Source: Rhizomicrobium palustre
GTDB lineage: Bacteria > Pseudomonadota > Alphaproteobacteria > Micropepsales > Micropepsaceae
Assembly (NCBI RefSeq): GCF_011761565.1
Contig: NZ_JAASRM010000001.1
Span: 3,038,139-3,102,138 of the forward strand
DNA length: 64,000 nt
Direction: 5' to 3'
Part shown: piece by piece, positions 28,409 to 33,695 of the stretch
How the letters are laid out: every line of letters starts with the position of its first letter
Numbering within the stretch: position 1 is the first letter of the stretch
Program-made: the position numbers and the translations under genes
Notes under the pieces: model-generated
Told to the model about the DNA's origin: nothing
Databases searched by the model: none
The model's input: only the letters and a program-made list of their open reading frames with translations

Positions 28409-29785
28409 ATGATTTACGCGCGCGCATTAGCCGGGGTTGCCGGCCTTGTTCTTCTGGCCGGCTGCTCGGTCGATCTCGGCTCCGTGGGCGACACGGTGGG
28501 GCTCGGCTCCAAGGCACAGCCGCAGGGCCTGGCGGTGGGCGATGAGCCTTTTGCGGTGCGCGTGGGGGCGGCGACCCTGGCTCAGGGCGGTTCGGCGGCG
28601 GATGCGGCCTCGGCGATGTATTTTGCGCTCTCCGTCACCTATCCCGTGGCGGCTGGGCTCGGCGGCGGCGGCATTTGCATCGTTCATGATCCGGCCAAGA
28701 ACGAAACCGTGGAATATGATTTTCAACCGCGCGATGCGGCTTCGGGTGGGGCCTATGCAGTGCCGGGCGCTGTGCGCGGCATGGCGCTGATGCAGGGGCA
28801 ATACGGCAATCTGCCATGGCAGAAGGTGGTCTCACCTGCCGAAGGCTATGCACGGGCTGGTTTTCCGGTCTCCAAAGCCTTGGCCGACAGGCTTGCTTCC
28901 ACGGTGGATGTGATCCGGCTCGATGCCGGGCTTTCGGCGGCGTTCCTGGATGAATCCGGCAAGCCCATACCGGTTGGCACGATGGTGACCAATCCCGACC
29001 TTGCGAACACTTTGGCCGCGATCCGGGAAGCCGGGCCTGATGGTTTTTACGCGGGCGCGGTGGGCCAGAAGATTTCCGCTTATGCGGCAAGTGAGGGCGG
29101 GGCGATCACCGCCGCCGATCTCGCCTCGGCCAAGGCGCAGGTGACGACACCGCGCGTCAGCCAAATGGGTTCGCAATATATCTATCTGCCGTCGCAAAAG
29201 ACTGGCGCGGGGGCTTTCGCGGGCGCCGTTGTGGATCATCTTGCACGCGCCACGCAGACCGATATCGGCGGCAAGGATCTGCAAGCTTCCGTTGTCTATG
29301 CCACCCAGCAAGCCCTGAAGGATTACAAAGTCTCCGATCTGCCCAAAGATTTGGGCGCCACCGGCTTTGCCGCGATGGATAACAAGGGGCAGGCGGTGGC
29401 CTGCGCGGTGACCATGAACGGGCCGTTCGGCTCGGGCCATACGGCGCGCGGCACCGGCGTGACTCTGGCCAAAGCACCGTCCTCCGGCGCGGCGGGGCTG
29501 GCTTCGGCCTTCCTGACCCCTGTCATCGCTGCTCCGCGTACGGATGAACCGGCGGTTCTCGCGGGTGCAGGTGCGGGCGGTCCCAATGGTACGGCCGCGA
29601 TTGCCTATGCGCTGGCGCGCATTACTGCGGGCGATGAAATCCTCACCCGCAAGGATCTGCGCACCACCGGTGTTGCCCCTTACGACACGGTGAACGCGCT
29701 GGTCTGCTCGGGCTCGACCTGCGTGGCTTTGCCTGATCCGGCCGCCAGCGGCCTCGGCGCCGCAGTGCCGACACGCAAGAAGTAA
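28409..29785 (+). CDS. Gamma-glutamyltransferase-family lipoprotein
   Basis: 458 aa from ATG 28409. The lipobox is LLAGCSVDLG, so it is probably a lipoprotein. GGT-fold motifs are present: ATLAQGGSAADAASAMYFAL, YPVAAGLGGGGICIVHDP, GTMVTNPDLANTLAAI and VACAVTMNGPFGSG. It is shorter than the usual 550-580 aa. The region that starts the small subunit reads LGATGFAAMD where classical enzymes have a TTHYSVVD-type stretch: the nucleophile Thr position aligns with Ala317 and the next residue is Thr318. Autoprocessing and transferase activity are therefore uncertain. The gene is divergent from the M48 gene. Confidence 0.7.
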   Translation: MIYARALAGVAGLVLLAGCSVDLGSVGDTVGLGSKAQPQGLAVGDEPFAVRVGAATLAQGGSAADAASAMYFALSVTYPVAAGLGGGGICIVHDPAKNETVEYDFQPRDAASGGAYAVPGAVRGMALMQGQYGNLPWQKVVSPAEGYARAGFPVSKALADRLASTVDVIRLDAGLSAAFLDESGKPIPVGTMVTNPDLANTLAAIREAGPDGFYAGAVGQKISAYAASEGGAITAADLASAKAQVTTPRVSQMGSQYIYLPSQKTGAGAFAGAVVDHLARATQTDIGGKDLQASVVYATQQALKDYKVSDLPKDLGATGFAAMDNKGQAVACAVTMNGPFGSGHTARGTGVTLAKAPSSGAAGLASAFLTPVIAAPRTDEPAVLAGAGAGGPNGTAAIAYALARITAGDEILTRKDLRTTGVAPYDTVNALVCSGSTCVALPDPAASGLGAAVPTRKK

Positions 29786-29884
29786 GGGGGTATTCGCGCG
29801 GGAGTGGGTTGCCTTGGCGGCAGCGCTTCCCGCGCGGCATCATTTACCCTCCAGAATTTACTCTCAGGCATAAGTTTATTGGGT

Positions 29885-29910
29885 GGAATTAAAACGCATC
29901 GTCGCGCGTT
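29885..29910 (+). promoter_or_regulatory. Candidate EcfG-type general stress promoter for the PKS operon
   Basis: GGAAT (29885-29889), a 17-bp spacer, then CGTT (29907-29910). The alphaproteobacterial sigma-EcfG consensus is GGAAC, N16-17, CGTT. Only the last base of the -35 differs. Predicted start about 29917, leaving a leader of about 50 nt before the ATG at 29968. Confidence 0.5.
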
Positions 29911-29967
29911 ATACCGTAGCTTTTGACAGATGCGTCATGGAGGCGAGCCCTCCCACCCGAGGATTGT

Positions 29968-31002
29968 ATGCAAGTTCGCCTATCCGCACTGGCAACCGCC
30001 GTGCCGCCTTTTGTGCTTGAGCAGCGCGATGTTGCTGGCAGCGTTGAAGCGCTCCTGGGCAGTCACGAAAACATCCGCCGCCTTTTACCCGTGTTCGAGA
30101 ACGCCGGGATCGACCGTCGCTATTGCGCTGTTTCCTTCGACTGGTTCGCCAAGAGCCATGGCTGGCAAGACCGCAACGCCATGTTTGTGCGCAGCGCGGT
30201 GGCGTTGCTGGAAGAGGTGTCGTCAAAGCTTCTTGCCTCTGCCGGGCTTCAGCCGCGCGACATAGATGCCATCGTCACGGTATCGACCAGCGGTATCGCC
30301 ACCCCAAGTCTTGATGCGCTGCTCATCGAACAGCTCAGCTTGCGCAGAGACGTGAAGCGGCTGCCTATTTTCGGTCTCGGATGTGCGGGCGGTGTGATCG
30401 GGTTGTCGCGCGCCGCCGATATCGCAAAGGCGATGCCGGGCAGCAACGTGCTTTTTCTCGTCGTCGAACTCTGCACCCTGAATTTTCGAAAAGAAGATTT
30501 GTCCAAGAGCAATATCGTGGCGACGGCCCTGTTCGGGGATGGCGCGGCGGGCGCGTTGCTCTCAACAGAGGCTCAAGGCCCCGTACTTGGCCCCAGTGGC
30601 GAGCATACCTGGCCCCATTCTCTCGATGTGATGGGGTGGGAGGTCGAAGATCAAGGCCTCAAGGCGATCTTCTCCACCAGCATTCCTGCTTTGATCGAAC
30701 GGGATATGCGCGCCATTACCGATACGTTTCTCGCCGATCACCAGCTCTCGCGTCGCGATATCGCGCTTTACGCAAGCCATCCCGGCGGCGCCAAGGTGCT
30801 TGATGCGCTGGAGCATGCTTTCGAGATCGAGACCCTGAGCGATAGTCGCGCGGTTCTCAGCGCATACGGCAACATGTCGGCGGTCACCGCGCTCTTTGTT
30901 CTGGCCCGCATGAACTGGCGCAAACCGGACGGGCGTATCCTCTTGAGCGCGATGGGGCCGGGCTTCACCGCGGCATTCCAGCTTCTCGGGGGGCCATCAT
31001 GA
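29968..31002 (+). CDS. Type III polyketide synthase (alkylpyrone/alkylresorcinol type)
   Basis: 344 aa from ATG 29968 with a GAGG ribosome site; an in-frame GTG/ATG upstream lacks family sequence. The thiolase-fold catalytic triad is complete: Cys139 in FGLGCAGGVIGLSRA, His271 in YASHPGGAKVLDALE and Asn302 in YGNMSAVTALF. STSGIATPSLDALLIEQL and LFGDGAAGALL are also conserved. It should condense a fatty acyl-CoA starter with malonyl-CoA into a pyrone or resorcinol. The next two genes overlap by 4 bp each, so this is a compact biosynthetic operon; partner identities favour an O-methylated, exported lipid-like product. Confidence 0.92.
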   Translation: MQVRLSALATAVPPFVLEQRDVAGSVEALLGSHENIRRLLPVFENAGIDRRYCAVSFDWFAKSHGWQDRNAMFVRSAVALLEEVSSKLLASAGLQPRDIDAIVTVSTSGIATPSLDALLIEQLSLRRDVKRLPIFGLGCAGGVIGLSRAADIAKAMPGSNVLFLVVELCTLNFRKEDLSKSNIVATALFGDGAAGALLSTEAQGPVLGPSGEHTWPHSLDVMGWEVEDQGLKAIFSTSIPALIERDMRAITDTFLADHQLSRRDIALYASHPGGAKVLDALEHAFEIETLSDSRAVLSAYGNMSAVTALFVLARMNWRKPDGRILLSAMGPGFTAAFQLLGGPS

Positions 31003-31493
31003 CGATTGCTATCGCTATCATCGCTGCGGTCGCGCTGCAACGGCTGTTGGAACTCGTCTGGGCGCAGCGCAACACCGCGCGGCTGCGCGCGCGTGGTGCC
31101 ACAGAGGTGGGGGCAAGCCATTACCCGCTCATAGTGCTGCTGCATGCGGCCTGGCTGGTCTCGATCCTGATTTTTCTGCCGTTGCCGGTCGCAATCTCCG
31201 CGGTGCCATTGGCTGCGTTTTTAGGGTTGCAGCTTTGCCGGGTCTGGGTGCTTTTCACCTTGGGGCCTTATTTCACCACCCGCATCATCTCTCTGCCTGG
31301 GGCGCCTTTGGTGCGAAAGGGCCCTTATCGCTACATCCGCCATCCCAATTACGCCGTGGTGATTGGTGAAATTCTCACGCTTCCACTGGTCTTCGGCGAG
31401 GTGAAGGTTGCCATCGTCTTCTCGCTGTTGAATGCGGCGATATTGACGTGGCGCATTCGCGTGGAAGATGCAGCCCTGGCAGCACGCCGATGA
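30999..31493 (+). CDS. Isoprenylcysteine carboxyl methyltransferase-family protein
   Basis: 164 aa, ATGA overlap with the PKS stop. An integral membrane protein with four or so helices (MTIAIAIIAAVALQRLLELV, LIVLLHAAWLVSILIFLPLP). The C-terminal SAM-binding signature is LVRKGPYRYIRHPNYAVVIG followed by EILTLPLVFGE. In type III PKS operons of Bacillus (bpsB) and Streptomyces (srsB), proteins of this family O-methylate alkylpyrones or alkylresorcinols, which is the likely role here. Protein prenyl-cysteine is not a plausible substrate in this setting. Confidence 0.88.
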   Translation: MTIAIAIIAAVALQRLLELVWAQRNTARLRARGATEVGASHYPLIVLLHAAWLVSILIFLPLPVAISAVPLAAFLGLQLCRVWVLFTLGPYFTTRIISLPGAPLVRKGPYRYIRHPNYAVVIGEILTLPLVFGEVKVAIVFSLLNAAILTWRIRVEDAALAARR

Positions 31494-33016
31494 GCGATAC
31501 GGTGAAAAGCTGGATCGGCTTTATCGCCATGTGTGTGGGGATGTTCATGGCCATCCTGGATATTCAGGTAGTCGCGACCTCGCTGCCGCAATTGGGCGCC
31601 GCCCTCAACCTTCGTGAAAACGATCTGAGCTGGGTGCAGACCGCGTATCTCATCCCAGAGATCATCGCCATCCCGCTCACCGGCGTTCTGACGCGCGCCA
31701 TCGGCTTGCGCTGGCTTTTCACAGCCTCGACCTTGCTCTTTGTGATCGCCAGCCTTGGCTGCGCGCTGAGCGGTGGCTTTGCTACCTTGATCTTCTTTCG
31801 CGCGCTGCAAGGCTTTTCCGGCGGCGCTTTGATCCCGGCGGTGTTCACCTCGGTCTTCTCGATTTTTCCGCGTAAGGCGCAGCCCGCTGCGACCATCGTG
31901 GCGGGCAGCTTCGCCATGATCGCGCCGTCGCTTGGGCCAGCCTTGGGCGGCTACCTCACCGAGGCGTATAACTGGCACGCGATCTTTCTGATCAATATTC
32001 CGCCGGGGCTTTTGGTCTGTGCGGTGGTGGCTTTTCTGTTGCGCTCGCCCCGCAGCGGCCTCAGTGAATTGACCAGGGTTGATTATCTCTCGGTGATTTT
32101 TACCTCGTCTTTTCTCGTCGCCCTGATGCTTCTGCTCAAGGATGCGCCCAAGCAATCCTGGTCCGGTGCGGAGATTTGGGCGTTGGAGGCGATTTGCCTT
32201 CTCACGCTTATCGCCACCATCCGGCAGTGTTTGCGCCACCACCAGCCTTTCTTGCACTTGCGAAAATTTTCCGACCGCGCCTTTGCTACCGGGGCGATCC
32301 TCAGCTTTGTCACCGGCCTCGGTCTTTACGGCGCCACCTATCTCTTGCCGGTGTTTCTCGGCTATGTGCGCCATCACGATCCTTTGGAGATCGGCAAGAT
32401 CGTGATTGTGGCGGGGCTGGCGCAGCTTATTACCACCCCGGCGGCGGCGGTGCTCGAACTGCGCGTCTCTGCCAAATGGATTGCGCTGTTAGGCTTCGCG
32501 CTCTTCGGGGCGGGCTTTCTCGCCAATGGCTTCATGACGCCAGAGACCGATTTCGATGGTCTTTTCTGGCCGCAGGTGCTGCGTGGTGCGGCGGTGATGC
32601 TGTGCATTTTGCCGGCGACACGCTATGCCCTGGACAATTGGGAGGAGGCCGAGCTTTCCGACGCCAGCGCCTTGTTCAATCTCTTGCGCAATATGGGCGG
32701 GGCGGTCGGCATCGCCTTGGTGGATACGGTGTTGCAGCAGCGCACACCCGTTCACGTCCAGCACATCGTGACCGCGCTGCAAGCGGGCGATCGCGCCACG
32801 GCGGAATTTGTTGGCTTGCCGCTCAGCCGGTTTCATGGCGAGCCACTCGGCCCCATTGATGAGCTGACCAAATCCCTCATCCAGCCTATGGTGGAGCGGG
32901 CCGCGGCGACGCTGGCATTCAACGAAGCCTGGCTGATGGTCGGGGCGGTATTCGCTGTAACCCTCTTCATCTTCTTTTGGGCGCCGGGCACCGCACCGCT
33001 ATCGCGCAAGGCATAA
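31490..33016 (+). CDS. MFS transporter, DHA2 (14-helix) drug-efflux type
   Basis: 508 aa from ATG 31490, ATGA overlap with the methyltransferase. An EmrB/QacA-like antiporter: FMAILDIQVVATSLPQLGAA (motif D1), IGLRWLFTASTLLFV, FRALQGFSGGALIPAVFTSV, and motif C GSFAMIAPSLGPALGGYLTE. Fourteen hydrophobic segments are expected. As third gene of the operon it is the probable exporter of the methylated polyketide, or a resistance pump against it. It is followed by the convergent ompW terminator hairpin. Confidence 0.9.
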   Translation: MSDTVKSWIGFIAMCVGMFMAILDIQVVATSLPQLGAALNLRENDLSWVQTAYLIPEIIAIPLTGVLTRAIGLRWLFTASTLLFVIASLGCALSGGFATLIFFRALQGFSGGALIPAVFTSVFSIFPRKAQPAATIVAGSFAMIAPSLGPALGGYLTEAYNWHAIFLINIPPGLLVCAVVAFLLRSPRSGLSELTRVDYLSVIFTSSFLVALMLLLKDAPKQSWSGAEIWALEAICLLTLIATIRQCLRHHQPFLHLRKFSDRAFATGAILSFVTGLGLYGATYLLPVFLGYVRHHDPLEIGKIVIVAGLAQLITTPAAAVLELRVSAKWIALLGFALFGAGFLANGFMTPETDFDGLFWPQVLRGAAVMLCILPATRYALDNWEEAELSDASALFNLLRNMGGAVGIALVDTVLQQRTPVHVQHIVTALQAGDRATAEFVGLPLSRFHGEPLGPIDELTKSLIQPMVERAAATLAFNEAWLMVGAVFAVTLFIFFWAPGTAPLSRKA

Positions 33017-33049
33017 AAAGAGCCCGGTGCGGAGGGGCGCACCGGGCTC
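33015..33049 (-). terminator. Rho-independent terminator of ompW
   Basis: Stem GAGCCCGGTGC (33020-33030) / GCACCGGGCTC (33039-33049). The T-run lies on the reverse strand (AAAAA at 33015-33019 on +), 25 bp past the ompW stop. The hairpin may also slow the convergent PKS operon transcript. Confidence 0.85.
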
Positions 33050-33074
33050 GGTACCGGATCGTTGGCTCCGGATA

Positions 33075-33695
33075 TTAGAACTTGATGCCGACGCCTGTGC
33101 CGATCAGCCAGGGATTGATGTCCACTTTCGCCGTCACCGGCGCGCCCGAGAACGAGGCATTGGTGGAGAGCCACAGCTTCTTGACGTCGAAATTCCAGAC
33201 ATAGCGGCCATCTTCCGTGAGCGGAACATCGGTGCCGAATTGCAGCGCGAAGCCCCAATTGTCGGTCGTGCGCAGCTTGCCGAGCGGGCCGTTCGAGCGA
33301 TCATAGAAGATCGTCATGTTGGGGCCGGCGCCGACATAGGGTTCGAAGAAGCCGATCTTGTCGAAGTGATACTGCACCGTCACCGTCGGCGGCAGCAGGT
33401 AGACGGTGGCGAGCTTGCCAGCGGCGTTGTGATAGATGCTGTGTTTGGTGGTCCCGGCGATTACTTCCACGGCCCAATGCTTGGTGAAGTAATAGGAGAT
33501 ATCGGCCTCGGGGATGACGCTGTCGGTGATGCTGAGCTTGCCGCCGATATTCACGTTCGAGCCGACATCCGGCTGCACCGTCACGGCGCGCAAACGTACT
33601 TCCCAAGTCCCGGCTTCAGTGGCGGAGGCGGGCGCGCTCGCCAGCATCAGAGCGGTGACGGAAACGCTGGCCAGAGCAGCAAACACAGAACGCAT
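33075..33695 (-). CDS. OmpW-family outer membrane protein
   Basis: 206 aa from the ATG at 33693-33695, with AGAGGAA upstream. Signal peptide MRSVFAALASVSVTALMLAS with cleavage near ASA-TE. The eight-strand OmpW barrel is recognisable: GTWEVRLRAVTVQPDVGSNV, DISYYFTKHWAVEVIAGTTK, LPPTVTVQYHFDKIGFFEPY and the C-terminal PWLIGTGVGIKF ending in Phe, the BAM signal. OmpW proteins form small hydrophobic channels. The longer frame to 33833 has no signal at its start. Confidence 0.92.
   Translation of the reverse strand: MRSVFAALASVSVTALMLASAPASATEAGTWEVRLRAVTVQPDVGSNVNIGGKLSITDSVIPEADISYYFTKHWAVEVIAGTTKHSIYHNAAGKLATVYLLPPTVTVQYHFDKIGFFEPYVGAGPNMTIFYDRSNGPLGKLRTTDNWGFALQFGTDVPLTEDGRYVWNFDVKKLWLSTNASFSGAPVTAKVDINPWLIGTGVGIKF

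Follow-up and report, generated by a model that had tools for sequence, protein, structure and literature searches.

Results

The 64,000-nucleotide stretch of Rhizomicrobium palustre DNA considered here (contig NZ_JAASRM010000001.1), which we call the window, carries on its forward strand three successive genes: a type III polyketide synthase (PKS) gene at 29968..31002 (344 amino acids), a gene for a membrane methyltransferase of the ICMT family at 30999..31493 (164 amino acids, with an RHPNY stretch), and a gene for a DHA2 (EmrB-type) MFS exporter at 31490..33016 (508 amino acids). The operon is real and compact, and it represents a genus-level cassette, PKS-ICMT-AlkB-DHA2, in a version that lacks AlkB. 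Judging from homology, the operon probably makes and exports a methylated pyrone- or resorcinol-type lipid, and its link to stress is weak. The sister clusters, which contain AlkB and are in part linked to LuxI/LuxR genes, are a more surprising result than the operon of the window itself; they lie outside the window and were therefore missed in an earlier note on this DNA.

The PKS gene starts with an ATG preceded by GAGGA, and both junctions, PKS/ICMT and ICMT/exporter, are 4-bp overlaps of the form ATGA. In the PKS, the N- and C-terminal Chal_sti_synt domains (PF00195 and PF02797) both exceed the Pfam cut-off, and the catalytic triad Cys139-His271-Asn302 is invariant in 48 of 48 rows of an alignment in which the window PKS was entered twice and one further pair is identical. 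The ICMT-family gene, directly 3′ of the PKS gene, matches PF04140 with 97 bits against a cut-off of 24. The exporter scores 354 bits against TIGR00711 (DHA2/EmrB, NCBIfam), for which the cut-off is 230, and 146 bits against the Pfam family MFS_1, also above the cut-off; a plain hydropathy scan, which is a simple method, places 13 helices in this protein, and 14 transmembrane helices are expected of the DHA2 family. The earlier note, made from the letters alone, had described a type III PKS with a complete Cys-His-Asn triad, followed by a methyltransferase of the ICMT family and an exporter of the DHA2 type, each gene overlapping the next by 4 bp, and this description stands.

The PKS gene followed by an ICMT gene is a widespread pair in alphaproteobacteria. 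A PKS was matched in 72 of 385 Alphaproteobacteria genomes (E up to 1e-60), and the ICMT gene adjoins the PKS gene in all 23 out-of-genus loci examined (L122-L144, among the best 30 PKS matches), one of which (L143) carries an in-frame stop in the PKS gene. The 4-bp PKS/ICMT overlap occurs in 35 of 54 same-strand loci when only ATG and GTG starts are counted. The genome of the window also encodes a second intact type III PKS (L040:6818-8206, corresponding to G000:C1:155156-156169), which belongs to the other PKS clade of the genus and is followed by a degenerate ICMT remnant, without an exporter. In G013 and G035, the upstream neighbour of the PKS gene encodes a GNAT-family acetyltransferase of approximately 415 amino acids (L044:7331-8572 and L045:3771-5033).

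The exporter subfamily looks less usual as an operon member, yet dedicated to the PKS pathway, as far as gene order and co-occurrence indicate. No exporter gene was found within approximately 1 kb after the ICMT gene (less in L134) in any of the 23 out-of-genus loci. A search of 37 genomes recovered 14 loci of the exporter subfamily, of which 11 are linked to a PKS gene, two (G014 and G009) have a FabF-like beta-ketoacyl synthase gene as their neighbour, and the remaining one (G017) is situated at the end of a contig. We prefer this count to that of the exporter tree, in which 21 of 24 subfamily members are PKS-linked, because most rows of the tree were drawn from PKS loci. In the sample of the class, which was scored for three exporter and five PKS candidates per genome, a PKS is present in all 11 genomes whose exporter scores 480 bits or more when compared with that of the window, against an overall rate of 72/385. 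The hypergeometric probability of this co-occurrence (5e-9) is inflated by relatedness, the genomes falling into five families (f1, f39, f56, f60 and f66), and the 480-bit cut was set after a gap between 394 and 489 bits had been seen. These counts agree with the remark in the earlier note that a dedicated exporter is the less usual element of such an operon. The three-gene order, for which that note had proposed a search of other genomes, was found on one strand in families f1 and f39 and in a Hyphomicrobiales metagenome-assembled genome (MAG; L007); in family f66 (G221), the exporter gene is divergent from the neighbouring PKS-ICMT pair. Within the genus, the exporter is present in both of the diverged PKS clades.

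Some individual exporter loci show further features. The unlinked copies of G014 and G009 are located just 3′ of the FabF-like gene (L145:5334-8172 and L146:1857-4594), and the exporter gene of the PKS-ICMT-exporter operon of G003 is split across two reading frames (L041:3184-4817). Between the divergent exporter and PKS-ICMT genes of G221 (L190) lies a regulator that, read by eye and without a Pfam result, looks like the SARP/BTAD type.

In nine same-genus genomes (G011, G013, G014, G022, G028, G029, G035, G061 and G354) and in the MAG L002, an extra gene of approximately 327-355 codons lies between the ICMT and exporter genes (loci L044-L050, L153, L001 and L002; L001 shares its PKS sequence with G354). 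Pfam assigns this fourth gene to FA_desaturase in three of three copies tested, and among solved structures, the G011 copy is closest to the alkane 1-monooxygenases 8f6t (189 bits) and 8sbb. The ten cluster copies of this AlkB form one branch (89/90), and these copies plus the AlkB of G096 make up a group that is separated at 100/100. The cluster copies retain the histidine motifs HExxH, HxxxHH, HYG and RHSxHH, and in 10 of 10 NYxEHYG is replaced by NYxAHYG and LQRHS by MGRHS; the NYxAHYG variant is shared by 2 of 20 unlinked AlkB copies. With thresholds of 1e-3 and 1e-40, AlkB is present in 9 of 39 same-genus genomes, in each of the nine within this operon, and neither threshold gives a match in the single-contig genome of the window, where the ICMT and exporter genes overlap. 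In the PKS tree, the window PKS branches apart from the remaining 15 rows of its clade (98/96), and in the exporter tree, the window exporter groups with those of the AlkB-bearing loci L001 and L002 (96/95). Rubredoxin, the usual electron partner of AlkB, was found in two of the nine AlkB-bearing genomes and in none of seven other same-genus genomes. In the titles and abstract openings of the papers on these subjects that a library of PMC articles returned, we found no type III PKS operon reported to contain an AlkB.

Closest to the AlkBs of the clusters is that of G096 (100/100), a genome of another family, in which near relatives of the PKS-ICMT pair, the AlkB and the exporter are located on three separate contigs (L149, L152 and L188).

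The operon is preceded by a gamma-glutamyltranspeptidase-like gene that ends at 29785 and followed by a convergent ompW gene. A strong GC hairpin without a T-run occupies the upstream gap (29786..29850, forward strand; -38.6 kcal/mol, z -4.0), and a 12-pair hairpin with a T-run on the minus side only lies between the exporter gene and ompW (33020..33049; -28.9 kcal/mol, z -4.2). Because these strong hairpins flank them, the PKS, ICMT and exporter genes are, as judged by position, a single transcription unit. The region has 5 terminator-like sites, compared with 5.0 in shuffles. A scan of 29700-33200 for sigma-70 promoters found none.

Discussion

We consider it reasonably likely that the three-gene operon builds, O-methylates and exports an alkyl-alpha-pyrone, or with lower likelihood an alkylresorcinol, as the AlkB-less form of the cassette. 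The PKS would condense a long-chain acyl-CoA with malonyl-type extenders, the ICMT-family enzyme would methylate a ring hydroxyl of the PKS product in the membrane, and the DHA2 pump would move the methylated lipid outward; in the sister cassettes, hydroxylation of the alkyl chain by AlkB would precede export. The sequences show the gene families, the catalytic residues, the overlaps, the conserved gene order, the exporter-PKS co-occurrence and, within the genus, the confinement of AlkB to this operon; the product, the methylation site, the direction of transport and the AlkB substrate are what we infer in this scheme. We favour a methylated alkylpyrone and regard a resorcinol as its chief competitor, because the closest solved structure to the window PKS is that of Mycobacterium tuberculosis PKS11 (4jao; E 5.8e-54) and in view of two precedents. 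According to an excerpt of the Bacillus study, bpsA-bpsB directs the synthesis of triketide pyrones together with small amounts of tetraketide resorcinols (PMC5686519), and, in the part seen of a survey of Acetobacteraceae, the type III PKSs of the acidophilic group are assigned to pyrone or resorcinol synthesis (PMC8776678). The methylated lipid that the earlier note had proposed is likewise made plausible by the homology to PKS11.

Less probable, although quite conceivable, is that the operon mainly yields an alkylresorcinol, or a resorcylic acid with SrsB-like methylation, in place of a pyrone. As the title of a paper has it, SrsB of Streptomyces griseus reportedly methylates alkylresorcylic acid, and sequence cannot tell a pyrone from a resorcinol outcome. 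However, the best solved relative is an alpha-pyrone synthase, and the operon is bordered by the gamma-glutamyltranspeptidase-like gene and ompW, with no SrsC-type flavoprotein gene adjoining.

The earlier note had also placed the operon behind a promoter of the stress sigma factor EcfG, and the motif GGAAT-N17-CGTT is indeed found at 29885..29910 on the forward strand, 57 bp 5′ of the PKS ATG, as a weak candidate for an EcfG-like promoter. EcfG control of the operon is possible but not favoured, and we think it unlikely that this is a lipid operon of the EcfG-controlled general stress response. The regulon genes on which the stress reading depends are present: nepR, phyR, an ECF sigma gene and an HWE/HisKA_2 kinase gene lie side by side in the genome, with GGAAC-N17-CGTT approximately 65 bp 5′ of phyR (NepR and PhyR were assigned by Pfam, and the sigma factor is called EcfG from its position beside nepR). 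EcfG sites cluster 0-100 bp before genes, as stated in an excerpt of PMC6599016, and a CGTT -10 at N17, inside the spacing of 16-18 typical of such sites, and within approximately 100 bp of the gene fits the EcfG regulon; the -35 of the window, GGAAT, departs from the AAC of GGAAC. In S. granuli, this AAC is mismatched in only 3 of 79 EcfG promoters (PMC7083833, in excerpt), although at least one EcfG-regulated gene of S. melonis is tabulated with a GGAAA site in the part seen of PMC6599016.

The genome-wide distribution of the two motifs argues against the window site. GGAAT-N16..18-CGTT occurs at 83 sites in the genome (4.26 Mb) compared with 59 for the reversed pattern; therefore, the motif alone is not rare. 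For GGAAC, the true motif (44 sites) is rarer than its reversed control (136 sites), and because composition probably biases that control, we relied on the placement of sites. When sites are considered promoter-placed if they are intergenic and within 200 bp 5′ of a same-strand gene, according to a home-made codon model, 16 of 30 GGAAC-N16/17-CGTT sites (those of the 44 with flanking DNA available, two spacings mixed) and only 2 of 20 GGAAT-N17-CGTT sites (from 22 other than the window's own site, with one spacing) qualify (Fisher p 0.002).

Furthermore, the EcfG-like site is not conserved 5′ of most relatives' operons. The strict motif GGAA[CT]-N14..20-CGTT is found near the PKS start in 4 of 37 loci: those of the window and of G026, L001, whose spacer measures 20, and L062, where the motif falls within the reading frame. 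Matches to at least eight of the nine motif positions within 200 bp occur in 4 of 23 PKS loci (the window, G013, G019 and G026), distances being rough in the six of the 23 for which no ATG or GTG start was found. Three of these four loci are equalled by 5-12% of shuffles; the exception is G026, from the other PKS clade of the genus, whose PKS gene is preceded by a perfect GGAAC-N16-CGTT that 0 of 200 shuffles reach. The stress control put forward in the earlier note gives way on the deviant -35, on the placement of such sites, and on their lack of conservation in most relatives.

That the exported lipid is a signal and not a membrane or protective lipid, with the cassette lying within a LuxI/LuxR locus in part of the genus, appears quite improbable to us. 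The proposal draws on four genomes (G022, G028, G029 and G061), in which LuxR, LuxI, PhyH and LuxR genes lie directly 5′ of PKS-ICMT-AlkB-exporter on the same strand (L047:2597-5804 and L153:8203-12163, and likewise in L046 and L049), with a further LuxI gene in three of these loci; the Pfam assignments of the neighbours were made for G022 and G061. A signalling role would also have a precedent in the bpsA-bpsB alkylpyrone, which, according to an excerpt of PMC5686519, reportedly acts as a signal that influences the colony morphology of several Bacillus species. However, the four genomes are only 4 of the 15 loci of the PKS clade and form a single subclade of the PKS tree (98/88). The other 11 of the 15 loci, that of the window included, have none of these genes nearby, although the upstream DNA is short in some of them. 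PF00765 matches were obtained in 10 of 20 genomes of the genus, and the LuxI of the window's own genome is approximately 2 Mb from the PKS gene. The LuxR-LuxI pair of that genome (L216:595-2879; G000:C1, at approximately 1041 kb) has as its neighbour a gene that encodes a RovC-type DNA-binding domain.

We also regard as unlikely, when all of its parts are taken together, the more extensive proposal that the window operon is what is left of a so far undescribed cassette whose PKS product would be O-methylated, chain-hydroxylated by a dedicated, rubredoxin-independent AlkB of a distinct subfamily and exported by a dedicated DHA2 pump, with the cassette of one subclade being part of a LuxI/LuxR locus and its lipid density-controlled or itself a signal.

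It is very unlikely that the DHA2 protein serves as a general drug pump and neighbours the PKS-ICMT pair by chance, because its subfamily tracks the PKS in five families, adjoins it in three and accompanies both PKS clades of the genus, even though related DHA2 pumps are numerous (the genome of the window has five matches at E up to 1e-30), no exporter adjoins the PKS-ICMT pair at the 23 out-of-genus loci, and of the 41 class genomes in which all exporter matches are weaker, nine hold a PKS, which is about the overall rate (hand count).

Several points weigh against the export of a methylated alkylpyrone by this operon. Among solved PKSs, even the closest is only a remote relative (PKS11, 187 bits). 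The exporter is unlinked in families f56 (G092 and G385) and f60 (G096, close to a contig end), and the class counts may have missed members, given the number of candidates scored per genome. From the lack of a linked exporter at the 23 out-of-genus loci, it follows that the exporter is an addition and that most PKS-ICMT pairs manage without a linked one. In the sister cassettes, the activity of AlkB is uncertain because seven of the nine AlkB-bearing genomes show no rubredoxin. Finally, we know of no product for any member with this gene order.

Alphaproteobacterial type III PKS-ICMT pairs are widespread in the class, but to our knowledge few of their products have been characterized or traced to a destination. 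The co-occurrence of an exporter points to release of the lipid, in whole or in part, from the cell. The recruitment of AlkB only into this operon would shift an enzyme of hydrocarbon degradation into lipid biosynthesis, and its natural presence and absence across sister genomes make the role of AlkB testable by lipid comparison.

Comparison with known systems

We take both BpsB of Bacillus and SrsB of S. griseus to be ICMT-type methyltransferases, and SrsC to be a flavoprotein hydroxylase. Similar to the window operon, srsABC combines a type III PKS with an O-methyltransferase, and the srs cluster also has a stand-alone hydroxylase. In contrast to srsABC, no flavoprotein hydroxylase gene adjoins the operon of the window, and the hydroxylase of the sister clusters is AlkB, a di-iron membrane enzyme. 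According to an excerpt of a cyanobacterial survey, srsC is the only other stand-alone hydroxylase known in a type III PKS cluster (PMC8086630). The bpsA-bpsB genes likewise pair a PKS with a methyltransferase, with aliphatic pyrone and resorcinol products (PMC5686519, in excerpt). However, the window adds an overlapping DHA2 gene and its relatives add an AlkB, and the word "transporter" is absent from the text of PMC5686519.

PKS11 of M. tuberculosis (4jao), the closest solved relative of the window PKS, has its catalytic Cys in the same position and is nevertheless distant. The AlkB of the sister clusters resembles the alkane 1-monooxygenases 8f6t and 8sbb in its score against 8f6t and in its histidine motifs; it differs in that NYIEHYG and LQRHS of 8f6t correspond to NYxAHYG and MGRHS in all ten cluster copies, and the window itself has no AlkB. 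Some cyanobacterial type III PKS clusters carry MFS transporters, and MFS, RND and ABC types are known there; these clusters, as described in the part seen of PMC8086630, are hybrid type I/III or cytochrome b5-associated and thereby differ from the PKS-ICMT-DHA2 arrangement of the window.

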